This document shows positions 1,517 through 5,602 of a stretch of DNA of 64,000 nt, one piece after another; the stretch's first letter is position 1; every line of letters starts with the position of its first letter. This DNA comes from Ferruginibacter sp. (GTDB taxonomy: Bacteria > Bacteroidota > Bacteroidia > Chitinophagales > Chitinophagaceae): positions 62,001-126,000 of the forward strand of contig JAHBTN010000010.1 of NCBI GenBank assembly GCA_019638575.1, read 5' to 3'. The notes under the pieces were generated by a model that saw only the letters and a program-made list of their open reading frames with translations, was not told where the DNA came from and searched no databases. The position numbers and the translations under genes are program-made.

Positions 1517-3205
1517 TTATTTTTCATCCGTTACGCATCCCTGGTCGGCAGGTTTTACCTGCTGTGCATATTTAAATAAGGCACCTTTAGTTGCTTTCAG
1601 CGCCGGTTGCTTCCAGTTTTTTCTTCTTTCAGCAATTTCATTATCCGAAACTTTTAATGTTAGCTTATTGTTTACCGCATCTATTTCAATCCTGTCATCA
1701 TCTTTTACCAATGCAATCAATCCGCCTTCAAAAGCTTCAGGTGTAATGTGGCCAACAACAAATCCATGTGTACCGCCGCTAAACCGTCCATCGGTAATGA
1801 GCGCTACTGTTTTGCCAAGCCCTGCACCAATGATGGCAGATGTTGGTTTAAGCATTTCGGGCATGCCCGGTGCACCTTTGGGGCCTATGTAGCGTATCAC
1901 CACTACATCGCCTGCATGCACTTTACCCGAAGCAATGCCGGCTATCAAATCTTTTTCACCATCAAACACTCTTGCAGTTCCTTCAAATTTTTCACCTTCC
2001 TTACCTGTTATTTTTGCCACGCTGCCTTTTGGGGCCAGGTTACCATAAAGTATTTGTAAATGCCCTGTTGCTTTCAATGGTTTTTCTAAAGGCATAATTA
2101 TTTTCTGGTTTTCAAAATCAAGCGCCGGAGCTTCAGCAAGATTTTCTGCAATTGTTTTGCCGGTTACGGTAAGGCAATCGCCATGCAACAATCCTTTACT
2201 TAATAAATATTTCATTACGGCCGGTACGCCGCCATGTTCATGCAGATCCTGCATCAAATATTTTCCGCTTGGTTTAAAATCGGCCAGCAGCGGCACTTTG
2301 TTGCTGATGTTTTGAAAATCATCGGGAGTGATATCAACATGCACACTTTTTGCAATTGCAACAAGATGCAGCACGGCATTGGTGCTACCTCCCAAAACCA
2401 TTACAACGGTGATGGCATTTTCAAAAGCCTTACGGGTCATGATGTCGGAAGGCTTTATATCTTTCTCCAATAAAACTTTTATTGCTTTGCCCACTGCATC
2501 ACATTCTTTTTGTTTGTCCATACTTAATGCAGGGTTGGAAGAAGAGTTGGGTAAACTCATTCCCAATGCTTCAATAGCGCTTGCCATTGTGTTGGCTGTG
2601 TACATGCCGCCACAGGCGCCTGCACCGGGACAAGAATGTTGCACGATGCCTTTGAAATCGTTTTCACTTAAACTGCCGGCTATCTTTTGCCCAAGCGCTT
2701 CAAAGGCAGAAACAATATTTAAATCTTCGCCTTTGTAATGGCCCGGTGCAATAGTGCCACCGTACAACATAATGGCCGGACGGTTCAATCTTCCCATTGC
2801 CATAACAGAGCCCGGCATATTTTTATCGCAACCCGGTATTGCAATCAATGCATCATAATATTGTGCACCTGCATTTGTTTCAATACTATCGGCAATCAAG
2901 TCACGGCTTACCAGGCTGTACCGCATACCATCGGTTCCCATGCTAATGCCATCGCTTACACCGATAGTGTAAAAACGCAGGCCCAGTAAGCCTTCTGTAG
3001 CATTAACGCTTTTCTTTACGGATGTGGCCAAATCGTTCAGGTGCATATTGCAGGGGTTACCATCCCAGCCCATACTTACTATCCCAACCTGCGCTTTATT
3101 AAAATCTTCTTCCTTAAAACCAATAGCATAATACATGGCCTGCGCTGCAGGTTGTGTGGCATCCTGTGTAAGTGTTTTGCTGTATTTGTTTAATTCGCTA
3201 CCCAT
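1517..3205 (-). CDS. ilvD: Dihydroxy-acid dehydratase
   Basis: IlvD dehydrates 2,3-dihydroxy-isovalerate and 2,3-dihydroxy-3-methylvalerate to the 2-keto acids that IlvE transaminates. The protein is 562 residues, the usual length for this Fe-S enzyme. The three cluster cysteines sit in [11 protein letters not shown] (near residue 50), PGCDKNMPG (near 125) and [13 protein letters not shown] (near 198). The C-terminal half has the family segment [16 protein letters not shown]. It lies 50 bp after ilvE and 12 bp before ilvB on the same strand, so co-transcription is likely and expression should follow the attenuator upstream of ilvE. Confidence 0.97.
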
Positions 3206-3255: not shown

Positions 3256-4191
3256 TTATTGTAAAACAATTTTTTCCTGCTGAAATTTTTCTTTTGATGG
3301 TTCAGCTATAAAACTGCTTGAAGAAGTTACCCTGCGTTTATATGCATCCTGTATTTGTTTACTGATGCTTTTATTCCAGTCTTTTTTAAACACAATCCCA
3401 TCAAGGCTTTCAAAGCCTATCACTTCGGCGGCTGTGCCGCAAAAAAATGCTGCATCGGCTTGTAATAATTCTTCTGTTGTAATTTGTTTTTCAGTAACAG
3501 GTATTCCTTTTTCTTTACAGATTTCTAAAACGGTTGCCCTTGTAATACCCGGCAGTATATTTCCCAATGATGGTGTAAACAGTTTGCCGTCTTTTTCATA
3601 AAATATATTGGCGCCCGGCGCTTCTGCTACAAAACCGTTTATGTCGGATAACAATGCCTCATCAAAACCTTTTGCTTTAGCTTCCTGGCTGGCAAGGATG
3701 GAGTTTACATAATGGCCGCTCACTTTGGCAGTAATTTTAAACCCTTTGGGGTTGGGCCTTTGAAAAGAGGAACTCATCACTTTTAAAAGTTTCTCGCCAA
3801 GAAAGGGTTGCATCTCCCAAACTTCAATAACAATAAACGATTCTTTGTTTTGTACAAAACTCATATTGGCAGGTGCGTAAATAAGCGGACGGATATATGC
3901 ATCCTGTAAATTATTCCTGTGCAGTAACTCGTAAGTGGCGCTTATCAATTCTTCTGTATCCCAATGGTATGGCAGGTTTACAGCTAAAGCAGATTGTTGC
4001 AACCTGTCATAATGTTCAACAGCTTTAAAAATTTTTGTTTCTCCTGATGTGGTCTTATACGAACGAATGCCTTCAAAAACTGCATAGCCATAGTGTAACG
4101 ATTGCCCGTAAAGATCTGTCTTAGCATCAACGGCTTTTAAAAATTCACCATTGTGATAGATGACTGTGTTGTTGTTGTAATAGTTTGCCAT
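3256..4191 (-). CDS. ilvE: Branched-chain amino acid aminotransferase
   Basis: This is a PLP fold-type IV transaminase (311 residues) that makes Ile, Val and Leu from their keto acids with glutamate as amino donor. The Schiff-base lysine is the K of TAKVSGHY (near residue 155). The FVAEAPGANIFY and LPGITRATVLEI segments that bind cofactor phosphate follow, and FFCGTAAEVIG comes near the end. N-terminal GYAVFEGIRSY is typical of the BCAT family. It is the first structural gene after the leader peptide and terminator at 4234-4388, so its transcription depends on readthrough of that terminator. D-amino acid transaminase and aminodeoxychorismate lyase share the fold, but the operon context decides for BCAT. 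Confidence 0.95.
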   Translation of the reverse strand: MANYYNNNTVIYHNGEFLKAVDAKTDLYGQSLHYGYAVFEGIRSYKTTSGETKIFKAVEHYDRLQQSALAVNLPYHWDTEELISATYELLHRNNLQDAYIRPLIYAPANMSFVQNKESFIVIEVWEMQPFLGEKLLKVMSSSFQRPNPKGFKITAKVSGHYVNSILASQEAKAKGFDEALLSDINGFVAEAPGANIFYEKDGKLFTPSLGNILPGITRATVLEICKEKGIPVTEKQITTEELLQADAAFFCGTAAEVIGFESLDGIVFKKDWNKSISKQIQDAYKRRVTSSSSFIAEPSKEKFQQEKIVLQ

Positions 4192-4233
4192 GATTTACCT
4201 GTTGTTTACCCTTTTTTTGTTATTGTATAAGCA

Positions 4234-4261
4234 TAAAAAAACCCGCCTTCGGGAGGCGGGT
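4234..4261 (-). terminator. Intrinsic terminator of the ilv attenuator
   Basis: On the minus strand, ACCCGCCT and AGGCGGGT form a perfect 8-bp GC-rich stem around a 5-base loop, followed directly by seven T residues. It lies between the leader ORF and ilvE, 43 bases before the ilvE start, so it would stop transcription before the structural genes. The bottom and loop of the hairpin include CCTCCCGAAG, exactly complementary to a segment inside the leader ORF. Confidence 0.9.
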
Positions 4262-4283
4262 CTGTATATTTTTTATATTTAGT

Positions 4284-4388
4284 TTATAATAGTACTCCAC
4301 CTCCCGAAGAAACAGGTATAATAATAATGGCCACAATAATGACTGCGGCTATTTGATTAATGTTATTATATATGTTTTGCTTCTTCAT
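4284..4388 (-). CDS. ilv leader peptide (34 residues), transcription attenuator
   Basis: A short ORF starts with ATG at 4388 and ends with TAA at 4284-4286. It encodes 34 residues beginning MKKQNIYNNINQ, followed by a run dense in branched-chain residues (AAVIIVAIIIIPV) and ending GGGVLL. At least half of the residues after position 12 are Ile, Val or Leu, the products of the downstream genes. The codons TCT TCG GGA GGT near the end contain CTTCGGGAGG (minus strand), a perfect 10-base complement to the terminator downstream, extendable by two G-U pairs. A ribosome stalled on Ile/Val codons would leave this segment free to pair with and disrupt the terminator. A ribosome reaching the stop codon would tend to cover it. 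The arrangement matches classic ribosome-mediated attenuation; the mechanism here is inferred. Confidence 0.85.
   Translation of the reverse strand: MKKQNIYNNINQIAAVIIVAIIIIPVSSGGGVLL
4299..4310 (-). promoter_or_regulatory. Antiterminator segment of the ilv leader
   Basis: The minus-strand bases 4310 to 4299 read TCTTCGGGAGGT inside the leader ORF. The central ten are the reverse complement of CCTCCCGAAG in the terminator (4247-4256), and the flanking bases can form G-U pairs, giving about 12 consecutive pairs. Formation would open the terminator stem. No competing long pairing for this segment was found by eye. Confidence 0.75.
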
Positions 4389-4403
4389 TAGATGAATCTG
4401 TTG

Positions 4404-4411
4404 CAAATATA
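4404..4411 (-). promoter_or_regulatory. Probable -7 promoter box for the ilv leader
   Basis: The minus strand reads TATATTTG, an exact match to the Bacteroidota -7 consensus TAnnTTTG, 15 bases upstream of the leader ATG at 4388. That would give a transcript starting only a few bases before the leader, which fits an attenuator needing prompt translation. No convincing TTG at the -33 position was seen. Readthrough from leuB could also feed the leader. Confidence 0.5.
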
Positions 4412-4477
4412 CATCCGCCACTTTAAAAAAGAACTGTACAAGCAAGTTTTTTTTTAAGGCCTTCGTTAATGGCCTGT

Positions 4478-5602
4478 TTATATGATGGTTGATTTTCTCA
4501 ACTCTATATTTTCTTTCTTTACCGAACCGGGCACAATACCGTTGATATAATCTGTAATCAACTCTCCAAGGGTAGAGGTGAAGTAGAAATTAACCGGGTC
4601 GATGTCTTTTGTAACAAAACCGTTTTGTAATGTCCACGCCACGGCTTTTCTTACAGTATCTGCTTCTTCTTTCATACCAAGGTATTCAAGCATCATAGCT
4701 GCAGAAAGTATGGAGCCAATGGGGTTGGCAATATCTTTTCCGGCAGCCTGCGGATATGAGCCATGTATCGGTTCAAACAAGGCAAGCCCGCCAGTGCCAA
4801 TGGATGCAGAAGGCAACAAGCCCAAAGAACCGCTTATCACACTTGCTTCATCGCTGATGATATCGCCAAACATGTTTTCTGTAAGAACTATATCAAACTG
4901 TTTTGGATTTAAGATAATCTGCATCGCTGCATTATCAACAAACATATATTCAACAGTTACATCGGGATATTGTGCTGCTACTTCTTGCACCACTTTTCTC
5001 CAAAGCCTTGATGTTTCCAAAACATTGGCTTTATCAACCAGCGTAACTTTTTTTCTCCTGTTTTCTTTCTGTGCAAAATGAAATGCCAGGTGTGCCATCC
5101 GTTCAATCTCTTCCCTGTTATACACACAATCATCCGAAGCCTGTGTGCCTTCGGCATTTAATTCCTTTTTACCAAAATAAATGCCGCCGGTTAGTTCACG
5201 AAAAATGATAAAATCAACCGCTTCGATGTTTTTGCTTTTTAACGGAGATAAATGCTGCAGCGATGGATATGTATTGATGGGGCGGATATTGGCATACAAC
5301 TGCAATGTTTTCCTAAGTTTCAGCAAACCCTGTTCAGGCCTCACTTTTGCGTTGGGGTTGTTATCATATTTTGGATGGCCGATTGCGCCAAATAAGATAG
5401 CATCGCTGTTGAGGCATGTGTCAATTGTTTCATCCGGCAACGGGTTGCCCGTTTTATCAATGGCCACGGCTCCCATCAGTACGTGCTTGTAAATAAACTG
5501 GTGGCCAAAGTTTTCGGCAATGGCATTTAATACATTGATGGATTGTTTGGTTACTTCGGGGCCTATGCCGTCGCCTTCAATAACTGCAATTTTCTTTATC
5601 AT
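4478..5602 (-). CDS. leuB: 3-isopropylmalate dehydrogenase
   Basis: LeuB oxidatively decarboxylates 3-isopropylmalate with NAD+ to the leucine keto acid. The 374-residue protein shows the beta-decarboxylating dehydrogenase signature: EGDGIGPEV at the N-terminus, the FRELTGGIYFG segment, then the metal-binding stretch NMFGDIISDEASVISGSLGLLPSAS and the cofactor-region motif EPIHGSYPQAAGKDIANPIGS. It is slightly longer than typical because of a polar C-terminal tail. It begins 6 bp after leuD, so it is the last gene of the leuACDB run. Confidence 0.97.
   Translation of the reverse strand: MIKKIAVIEGDGIGPEVTKQSINVLNAIAENFGHQFIYKHVLMGAVAIDKTGNPLPDETIDTCLNSDAILFGAIGHPKYDNNPNAKVRPEQGLLKLRKTLQLYANIRPINTYPSLQHLSPLKSKNIEAVDFIIFRELTGGIYFGKKELNAEGTQASDDCVYNREEIERMAHLAFHFAQKENRRKKVTLVDKANVLETSRLWRKVVQEVAAQYPDVTVEYMFVDNAAMQIILNPKQFDIVLTENMFGDIISDEASVISGSLGLLPSASIGTGGLALFEPIHGSYPQAAGKDIANPIGSILSAAMMLEYLGMKEEADTVRKAVAWTLQNGFVTKDIDPVNFYFTSTLGELITDYINGIVPGSVKKENIELRKSTII

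Follow-up and report, generated by a model that had tools for sequence, protein, structure and literature searches.

How does a Ferruginibacter sp. adjust the expression of its isoleucine and valine genes? Amino-acid control is poorly known in Bacteroidota, although they are major members of soil and gut communities. In enterobacteria, the ilvGMEDA, ilvBN, leu, thr, his and trp operons carry leader-peptide attenuators. The question arises at a short region between leuB and ilvE in the window (the whole 64,000-nucleotide stretch of DNA that was analysed, to which all plain coordinates refer), where an initial annotation had placed a candidate attenuator. As judged from sequence comparison and folding, this region is very probably a ribosome-mediated Ile/Val transcription attenuator for ilvE-ilvD-ilvB-ilvN-ilvC-ilvA. 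The features considered, from leuB onward, are:

4478..5602 (-), leuB, the last of the upstream leu genes (TIGR00169 above cut-off)
4404..4411 (-), promoter -7-like box of the Bacteroidota type (TAnnTTTG), TATATTTG
4390..4396 (-), segment 1, leader 5′UTR just ahead of the ATG, predicted to pair with segment 2 (family swap test; weak in the window)
4284..4388 (-), leader ORF, 34 codons plus stop, with ATG at 4388-4386, stop at 4286-4284 and peptide MKKQNIYNNINQIAAVIIVAIIIIPVSSGGGVLL
4317..4343 (-), regulatory Val/Ile run, codons 16-24 (V I I V A I I I I), read from the sequence
4297..4309 (-), segment 2, antiterminator 5′ arm CTTCGGGAGGTGG, within the late leader codons (sequence, folding, relatives)
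4235..4263 (-), intrinsic terminator with U-tract, AGACCCGCCTCCCGAAGGCGGGTTT at 4263-4239
4247..4259 (-), segment 3, antiterminator 3′ arm CCGCCTCCCGAAG, which doubles as terminator 5′ arm and loop (folding, relatives)
3256..4191 (-), ilvE, which opens the controlled unit (above cut-off for NCBIfam NF005146 and TIGR01122)
1517..3205 (-), ilvD (NCBIfam NF002068 and TIGR00110 above cut-off)

The initial annotation had named ilvE-ilvD-ilvB as the controlled genes. All three are present, and the set 3′ of the leader extends to ilvE-ilvD-ilvB-ilvN-ilvC-ilvA. The ilvB, ilvC and ilvA products scored above NCBIfam cut-offs. The ilvN product, a 196-aa protein, was named from its sequence and position only and is absent from the list at the strict 1e-40 threshold. 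The genes of this set make Ile and Val, and they are probably transcribed as a single unit. Between leuB and the promoter box, we also observed an inverted repeat, AGGCC...GGCCT, followed by an A-run (4457-4475); it is no terminator on the minus strand.

IlvE was present in 111 of the 294 genomes of the family, own genome included (E ≤ 1e-60). The comparison set comprised 101 ilvE-anchored regions, i.e., the window and 100 of the other 110 relatives. The nearest named genome was that of Ferruginibacter sp. ACE_BAC2, with an IlvE 95% identical to that of the window (the search may omit the window's own record). In the alignment upstream of ilvE that the initial annotation had suggested, an Ile/Val-rich leader and a terminator were found by script in 94 of the 101 regions, with covariation in the terminator. 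Both were also recognised by eye in L106, where the script picked the wrong hairpin. In L079, the terminator and GGAGGTGG were intact and the Ile/Val run was thinned; this leader is perhaps decaying or retuned. Five regions (L083, L089, L092, L103 and L107) had neither leader nor terminator, and their leuB and ilvE matches were 14-87 nt apart. In these, the leu and ilv genes may be controlled jointly by another route. In the genome of L107 (G004), a strong match to the element occurs ~ 0.5 Mb away, upstream of a solitary gene whose 98-aa product has no NCBIfam match at 1e-8. Inspection by eye of seven regions, including three of the five leaderless ones, revealed no leader before leuA. Likewise, no Leu-codon leader with a terminator was seen by eye upstream of the window's own leuA, as had been stated before.

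The promoter box of the initial annotation was read directly at 4411-4404, and its position would place the transcription start at ~ 4397. An exact TAnnTTTG occurred within 90 nt 5′ of the leader in 33 of the 94 regions (shuffled frequency 0.064) and one of three near forms in 57, the latter counted without a shuffle control; four regions had no box. A sigma-70-type scan of the window region found no promoter. We considered whether transcripts reading through from leu into ilv are attenuated as much as those that start at the unit's own promoter, which would be compatible with attenuation. No terminator appeared between leuB and the leader in a scan of 4100-4700, and 93 of the 101 regions have a leuB match 5′ of ilvE. 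However, TAnnTTTG or a near box precedes the leader in 90 of the 94 regions, and in 78 of these 90 it stands 14-21 nt ahead of the leader start. We judge an equal share for read-through less likely than not.

The leader ORF had been described as 34 codons with a dense Ile/Val run. It was read as such at 4388-4284, within a longer TTG-start ORF of the ORF list, and is kept in relatives. Over the 94 leaders, the residue shares were 23.1% Ile, 16.0% Val and 6.9% Leu. The window leader contains only two Leu codons. Since both come after the antiterminator segment, the leader is of the Ile/Val type and not, as first proposed, of the Ile/Val/Leu type, and Leu is unlikely to be a sensed signal. A hairpin across the Ile/Val codons (4349-4330) had 78.1% of its cells paired, compared with 74.3% in shuffles; slid by one codon, it had 70.7% paired and more double-change cells (47 vs 39). 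Codon repeats may account for the pairing of this candidate pause hairpin.

The terminator has the seven T residues noted earlier (4241-4235), and its stem, given as 8 bp, comprises 10 pairs in the terminator scan. The perfect 10-base complement between the late leader codons and the terminator stem is exact (CTTCGGGAGG:CCTCCCGAAG); once a G-U is allowed, it grows to 13 pairs (4309-4297 with 4259-4247). None of 200 shuffles of the leader segment matched the score of this duplex, and the complement between segments 2 and 3 exceeds chance. Folding of the minus-strand leader RNA, also suggested in the initial annotation, gave a z-score of -5.05, equalled by none of 200 shuffles. A leader with cognate codons, an intrinsic terminator and an antiterminator sharing a strand with it, i.e., the parts of a ribosome-mediated transcription attenuator, are all present.

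In the relatives, the consensus stem of the terminator showed compensatory changes in six of eight pairs, with 56 double-change cells vs 10.4 in shuffles. In the core helix of the antiterminator, 90.9% of cells were paired (92 distinct rows), compared with 89.3% in shuffles (0/500 as high) and 52-75% when the helix was slid. Its double-change cells numbered 8 vs 1.7 in shuffles (0/500). Double changes occurred in only two antiterminator pairs, and 186 of 500 shuffles did as well, since a single sequence is common to most rows. The duplex between segments 2 and 3 had at least 6 bp in 91 of the 94 regions and 4-5 bp in L073, L086 and L087; in 80 of the 94, fewer than 5% of 200 shuffles scored as well. 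Exchanging terminators between regions lowered the mean duplex score from 19.74 to 18.61 (sd 0.17; 0/2000 swaps equal). Both arms were changed in L094/95/97, L099/102/104/108 and L085/91/101, where scores of 18-24 fell to 12-15 with foreign terminators; no such drop was seen in L070/84, L054, L063 and L073.

In 92 of the 94 regions, segment 2 did not extend past the leader stop codon. In L017, a stop codon lies within segment 2 and the terminator carries a matching change (TGAGGTGG:CCGCCTCA). In L054 and L063, segment 2 is read in a different frame and the pairing is kept. Because the pairing outlasts frame shifts, an internal stop codon and compensatory changes, these comparisons argue that selection acts on the RNA pairing. 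They also bear on the idea that the short ORF encodes a small membrane protein and that the hairpin is a plain terminator of the leu genes. The peptide is indeed hydrophobic, and the hairpin does lie between leuB and ilvE. Nevertheless, the peptide of L017, L054 and L063 is truncated or frame-shifted while the RNA segment stays, and the counterparts before thrA and hisG have Thr and His runs with no membrane helix. Moreover, the leader also occurs in L099, L102, L104, L106 and L108, with no leuB match upstream within the stretch read, and a plain terminator needs no complement 8-13 nt past the Ile/Val codons. We consider this explanation very unlikely.

In the attenuation mechanism that we propose, the polymerase would start at ~ 4397 and make the leader, which a ribosome would translate at once. 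If charged Ile- or Val-tRNA were short, the ribosome would stall in codons 16-24 with its leading edge just ahead of segment 2. Segment 2 would then pair with segment 3 as soon as the latter is made, before the terminator 3′ arm exists, and the polymerase would run on into ilvE. With Ile and Val plentiful, the ribosome would reach the stop codon and cover segment 2, so that the terminator would form. In an untranslated leader, segment 1 could occupy segment 2 near the start codon, and termination would follow as well, an effect predicted to be weak in the window. The conserved leader, terminator and antiterminator pairing, the ribosome-sized spacing and the cognate runs elsewhere thus lend support to the earlier suggestion that stalling on Ile/Val codons frees the leader segment to block the terminator.

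The spacing from the last Ile/Val codon to segment 2 was 8-13 nt in 87 of the 94 regions, most often 12 nt (40 regions) or 11 nt (26). The leading edge of a ribosome lies ~ 12 nt from the first base of the A-site codon. Given this edge, a ribosome on any codon of the run is predicted to leave segment 2 free, and one at the stop codon to cover it; this is how segment 2 behaved in a geometric test with an assumed footprint. With the ribosome placed at the last Ile/Val codon and the nascent RNA ending before the terminator 3′ arm, at least 5 bases of the terminator 5′ half were paired upstream in 94 of the 94 regions. With the ribosome at the stop codon, the terminator formed in 94 of the 94, a result built into the footprint assumption.

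When a ribosome was set on the last Ile/Val codon and the full RNA was folded at equilibrium, the terminator was preferred in 82 of the 94 regions; with the stall 3-4 codons earlier, the antiterminator won in only 38-39. The full RNA with no ribosome preferred the terminator in 87 of the 94. Because equilibrium folds favour the terminator in most relatives, the mechanism assumes a kinetic choice or trapping. The window RNA preferred the antiterminator both with a stalled ribosome and with none; therefore, it may allow read-through by default when no ribosome is present. A riboswitch, T-box or protein-bound leader sensing Ile/Val without translation, to which the conserved terminator/antiterminator pair before a biosynthetic operon might point, is very unlikely, as no Rfam family reached its gathering score in the window or 16 related loci, the consensus fold of the last ~ 135 bases (the leader's first part lies outside the alignment) holds the terminator alone, and the codon runs fit the operon.

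Returning to the attenuator, the hold of segment 1 on segment 2 is supported by comparison across the family and appears weak in the window. With no ribosome, and before the terminator is made, segment 2 had a mean upstream pairing probability of 0.79, and its chief partner was the 15 nt ahead of the ATG in 72 of the 94 regions. This 5′UTR is pyrimidine-rich (C 0.36 and U 0.36 at -8 to -1), whereas ilvE starts of the same genomes have A at 0.47. Bacteroidota ribosomes rarely use Shine-Dalgarno pairing. In a swap test of 89 regions, which excluded five leaders with no ATG, the pairing of segments 1 and 2 reached -9.67 kcal/mol with the own UTR and -8.59 kcal/mol with swapped ones (sd 0.20; 0/2000 swaps equal); ilvE 5′UTRs gave -4.86 kcal/mol against segment 2. 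The signal against shuffled UTRs was moderate (p ≤ 0.05 in 22 of the 89, mean z -0.99), and the window pairing amounted to only -6.7 kcal/mol. We also tried the leader codons as the holder of segment 2 and rejected them: synonymous permutation, applied to 32 of the 94 leaders, moved the mean only from 0.830 to 0.795.

A covariance model from the 94 regions was run on 395 genomes of the class regardless of genes. It matched at E ≤ 0.01 in 115 genomes, with many of the matches weak and terminator-only; those below 40 bits, inspected for up to 30 loci, were left uncounted. Among the 19 out-of-family matches of at least 40 bits, 16 lay upstream of ilv (10), thrA (5) or hisG (1) genes, and L130, L138 and L142 did not:

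ilvE-, ilvD- or ilvN-like genes: L126, L127, L128, L129, L131, L132, L133, L135, L143, L146
thrA: L134, L136, L137, L139, L140
hisG: L141

The genes of L126, L128, L133, L134, L135, L139 and L141 were named by NCBIfam, with ilvN of L128 and L133 below the curated cut-off; the others were named by tblastn with window genes or by N-terminal likeness to L134 (L136, L137 and L140). The leaders carried runs cognate to the operon, i.e., Ile/Val for ilv, Thr for thrA and His for hisG. We collected 20 leaders of other operons or families, including L144, L145, L149 and the window genome's own pheA leader (L200). Nineteen were scored, and 16 had a gap of 8-15 nt. The script gave off-rule gaps for L128 (0 nt; 9 nt by eye if the run ends at LLII), L145 (6 nt) and L200 (20 nt; by eye 8 nt from the last Phe). 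It found no terminator in L144, which was not scored. Pairing was weak in L133 (4 bp) and L126 (5 bp).

By inspection, the thrA-like genes of L134, L136, L137, L139, L140 and L144 are preceded by Thr/Ile leaders bearing a TTG motif, and those of L139 and L144 use a different frame for the GGAGGA segment. L141 and L149 have His-run leaders (HHHH) and a terminator before hisG. L145, from a genome of the window's family, has a Phe-rich leader with a 10-bp GGAGGCGGGA:TCCCGCCTCC complement before pheA.

Among loci of named organisms, the element was found in 36 of 42 at E ≤ 2.4e-4, including 17 of 17 from Chryseobacterium; only Chryseobacterium and Marinoscillum are independent here, as several Chitinophagaceae contigs also fed the model. 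In Chryseobacterium, 14 of the 17 loci carry two consecutive Ile/Val leader-terminator units ahead of ilvE:

L175, L176, L178 and L181-L191: tandem units at ~ 2700-2970 of each locus

Of these units, 27 of 28 combined a 9-12 nt gap with a duplex of 6 bp or more; the exception, with 16 nt and 4 bp, is the first of the two in L184. Across the order, 99 of 396 genomes yielded a match at E ≤ 1e-4. L214, L215, L227, L230, L232 and L235 carry the element in the interval from leuB to ilvD, and none of these loci matches the window's IlvE.

The window's own genome probably holds a second attenuator, L200 (G000:C34, upstream of 125330), where a Phe/Tyr-rich leader MTNKSANTWFYFSYYFSNRPGAFVIN and a terminator precede pheA, a prephenate dehydratase gene (below the curated cut-off). 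In L201 (G000:C28, upstream of 5980), we observed a Thr-rich leader MKRDYHIIYSNSTVVNRIINLINCTTTITTR, ending CTTTITTR, before thrA. By eye, its Thr codons overlap a terminator-like hairpin, which a stalled ribosome might block directly. At L151 (G000:C7:92667-92776), the model matched MEKKDIVIIIIVLVVIVFG and a hairpin (E 2.9e-4) upstream of a gene with no evident amino-acid role; this match may be due to chance.

We put at about even the chances that Bacteroidia possess a broad and barely documented set of leader-peptide attenuators, for ilv, thr, his and phe, with a layout of their own. In it, the regulatory codons would lie between segment 1, over the leader's start region, and segment 2, inside the leader, with a ribosome ruler of ~ 12 nt. 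The pairing of segments 1 and 2 would allow the terminator to form and close the leader start site, and the two Ile/Val switches in series of Chryseobacterium would sharpen the response. A conserved attenuator implies that translation trails transcription closely enough for the ribosome to steer the polymerase, and it makes transcription-translation coupling in Bacteroidota directly testable. It also offers a rule for finding leaders: a cognate run, ~ 12 nt, and a complement of the terminator 5′ arm.

The initial annotation had called attenuation in Bacteroidota little studied. It is indeed hardly documented, but not wholly undescribed, as the Bacteroid-trp motif and work on F. psychrophilum attest (PMC9723704). 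The latter points strongly to leader-peptide attenuation of amino-acid operons; its passages on the subject give no ilv leader, pairing or covariation (PMC9723704). The Bacteroid-trp motif, RF01692, is listed as a probable cis-regulatory RNA of Bacteroidetes (PMC2864571). It concerns, by its name, trp genes, an operon other than the ilv operon of the window, and a search for it in the genome of the window found nothing at E ≤ 1. Presumably, the motif holds a Trp leader peptide. For B. thetaiotaomicron, short ORFs recalling leader peptides are mentioned (PMC7366714). In 2010, authors presenting a Firmicutes case stated that they had known no such system outside Proteobacteria and Actinobacteria, ermC aside (PMC2965389). 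No title among the matches listed in the open literature, a scope outside which most subscription papers fall, concerned an ilv leader in Bacteroidota. Bacteroidetes may be touched on in the comparative surveys of Vitreschak and colleagues (2004) and Lopatovskaya and colleagues (2010).

The actinobacterial attenuators (PMC1262725; PMC11857589 on ilvBNC) show leader-peptide attenuation outside Proteobacteria too, but, as described there, they differ from the window in phylum, sequences and gene order. Salmonella mgtCBR resembles the Chryseobacterium loci in having two serial leader ORFs; its ORFs are described as sensing two different signals (PMC3641672), whereas the Chryseobacterium leaders both carry Ile/Val codons. 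The closest parallel in operon type is enterobacterial: those attenuators, like the window, combine a short cognate-codon leader with mutually exclusive antiterminator and terminator. In contrast to them, segment 2 of the window lies inside the leader ORF, and segment 1 is the leader 5′UTR and start region and not the regulatory codons. The signal set also differs, as it comprises Ile and Val but not Leu. None of the Rfam leader families reached its cut-off: Phe_leader, Trp_leader, Leu_leader and Thr_leader scored 19.8-28.6 bits vs cut-offs of 41-55, and unrelated small RNAs scored alike. The class of mechanism is already known; what is new, within the literature searched, is how widely it occurs in Bacteroidia and how it is laid out.
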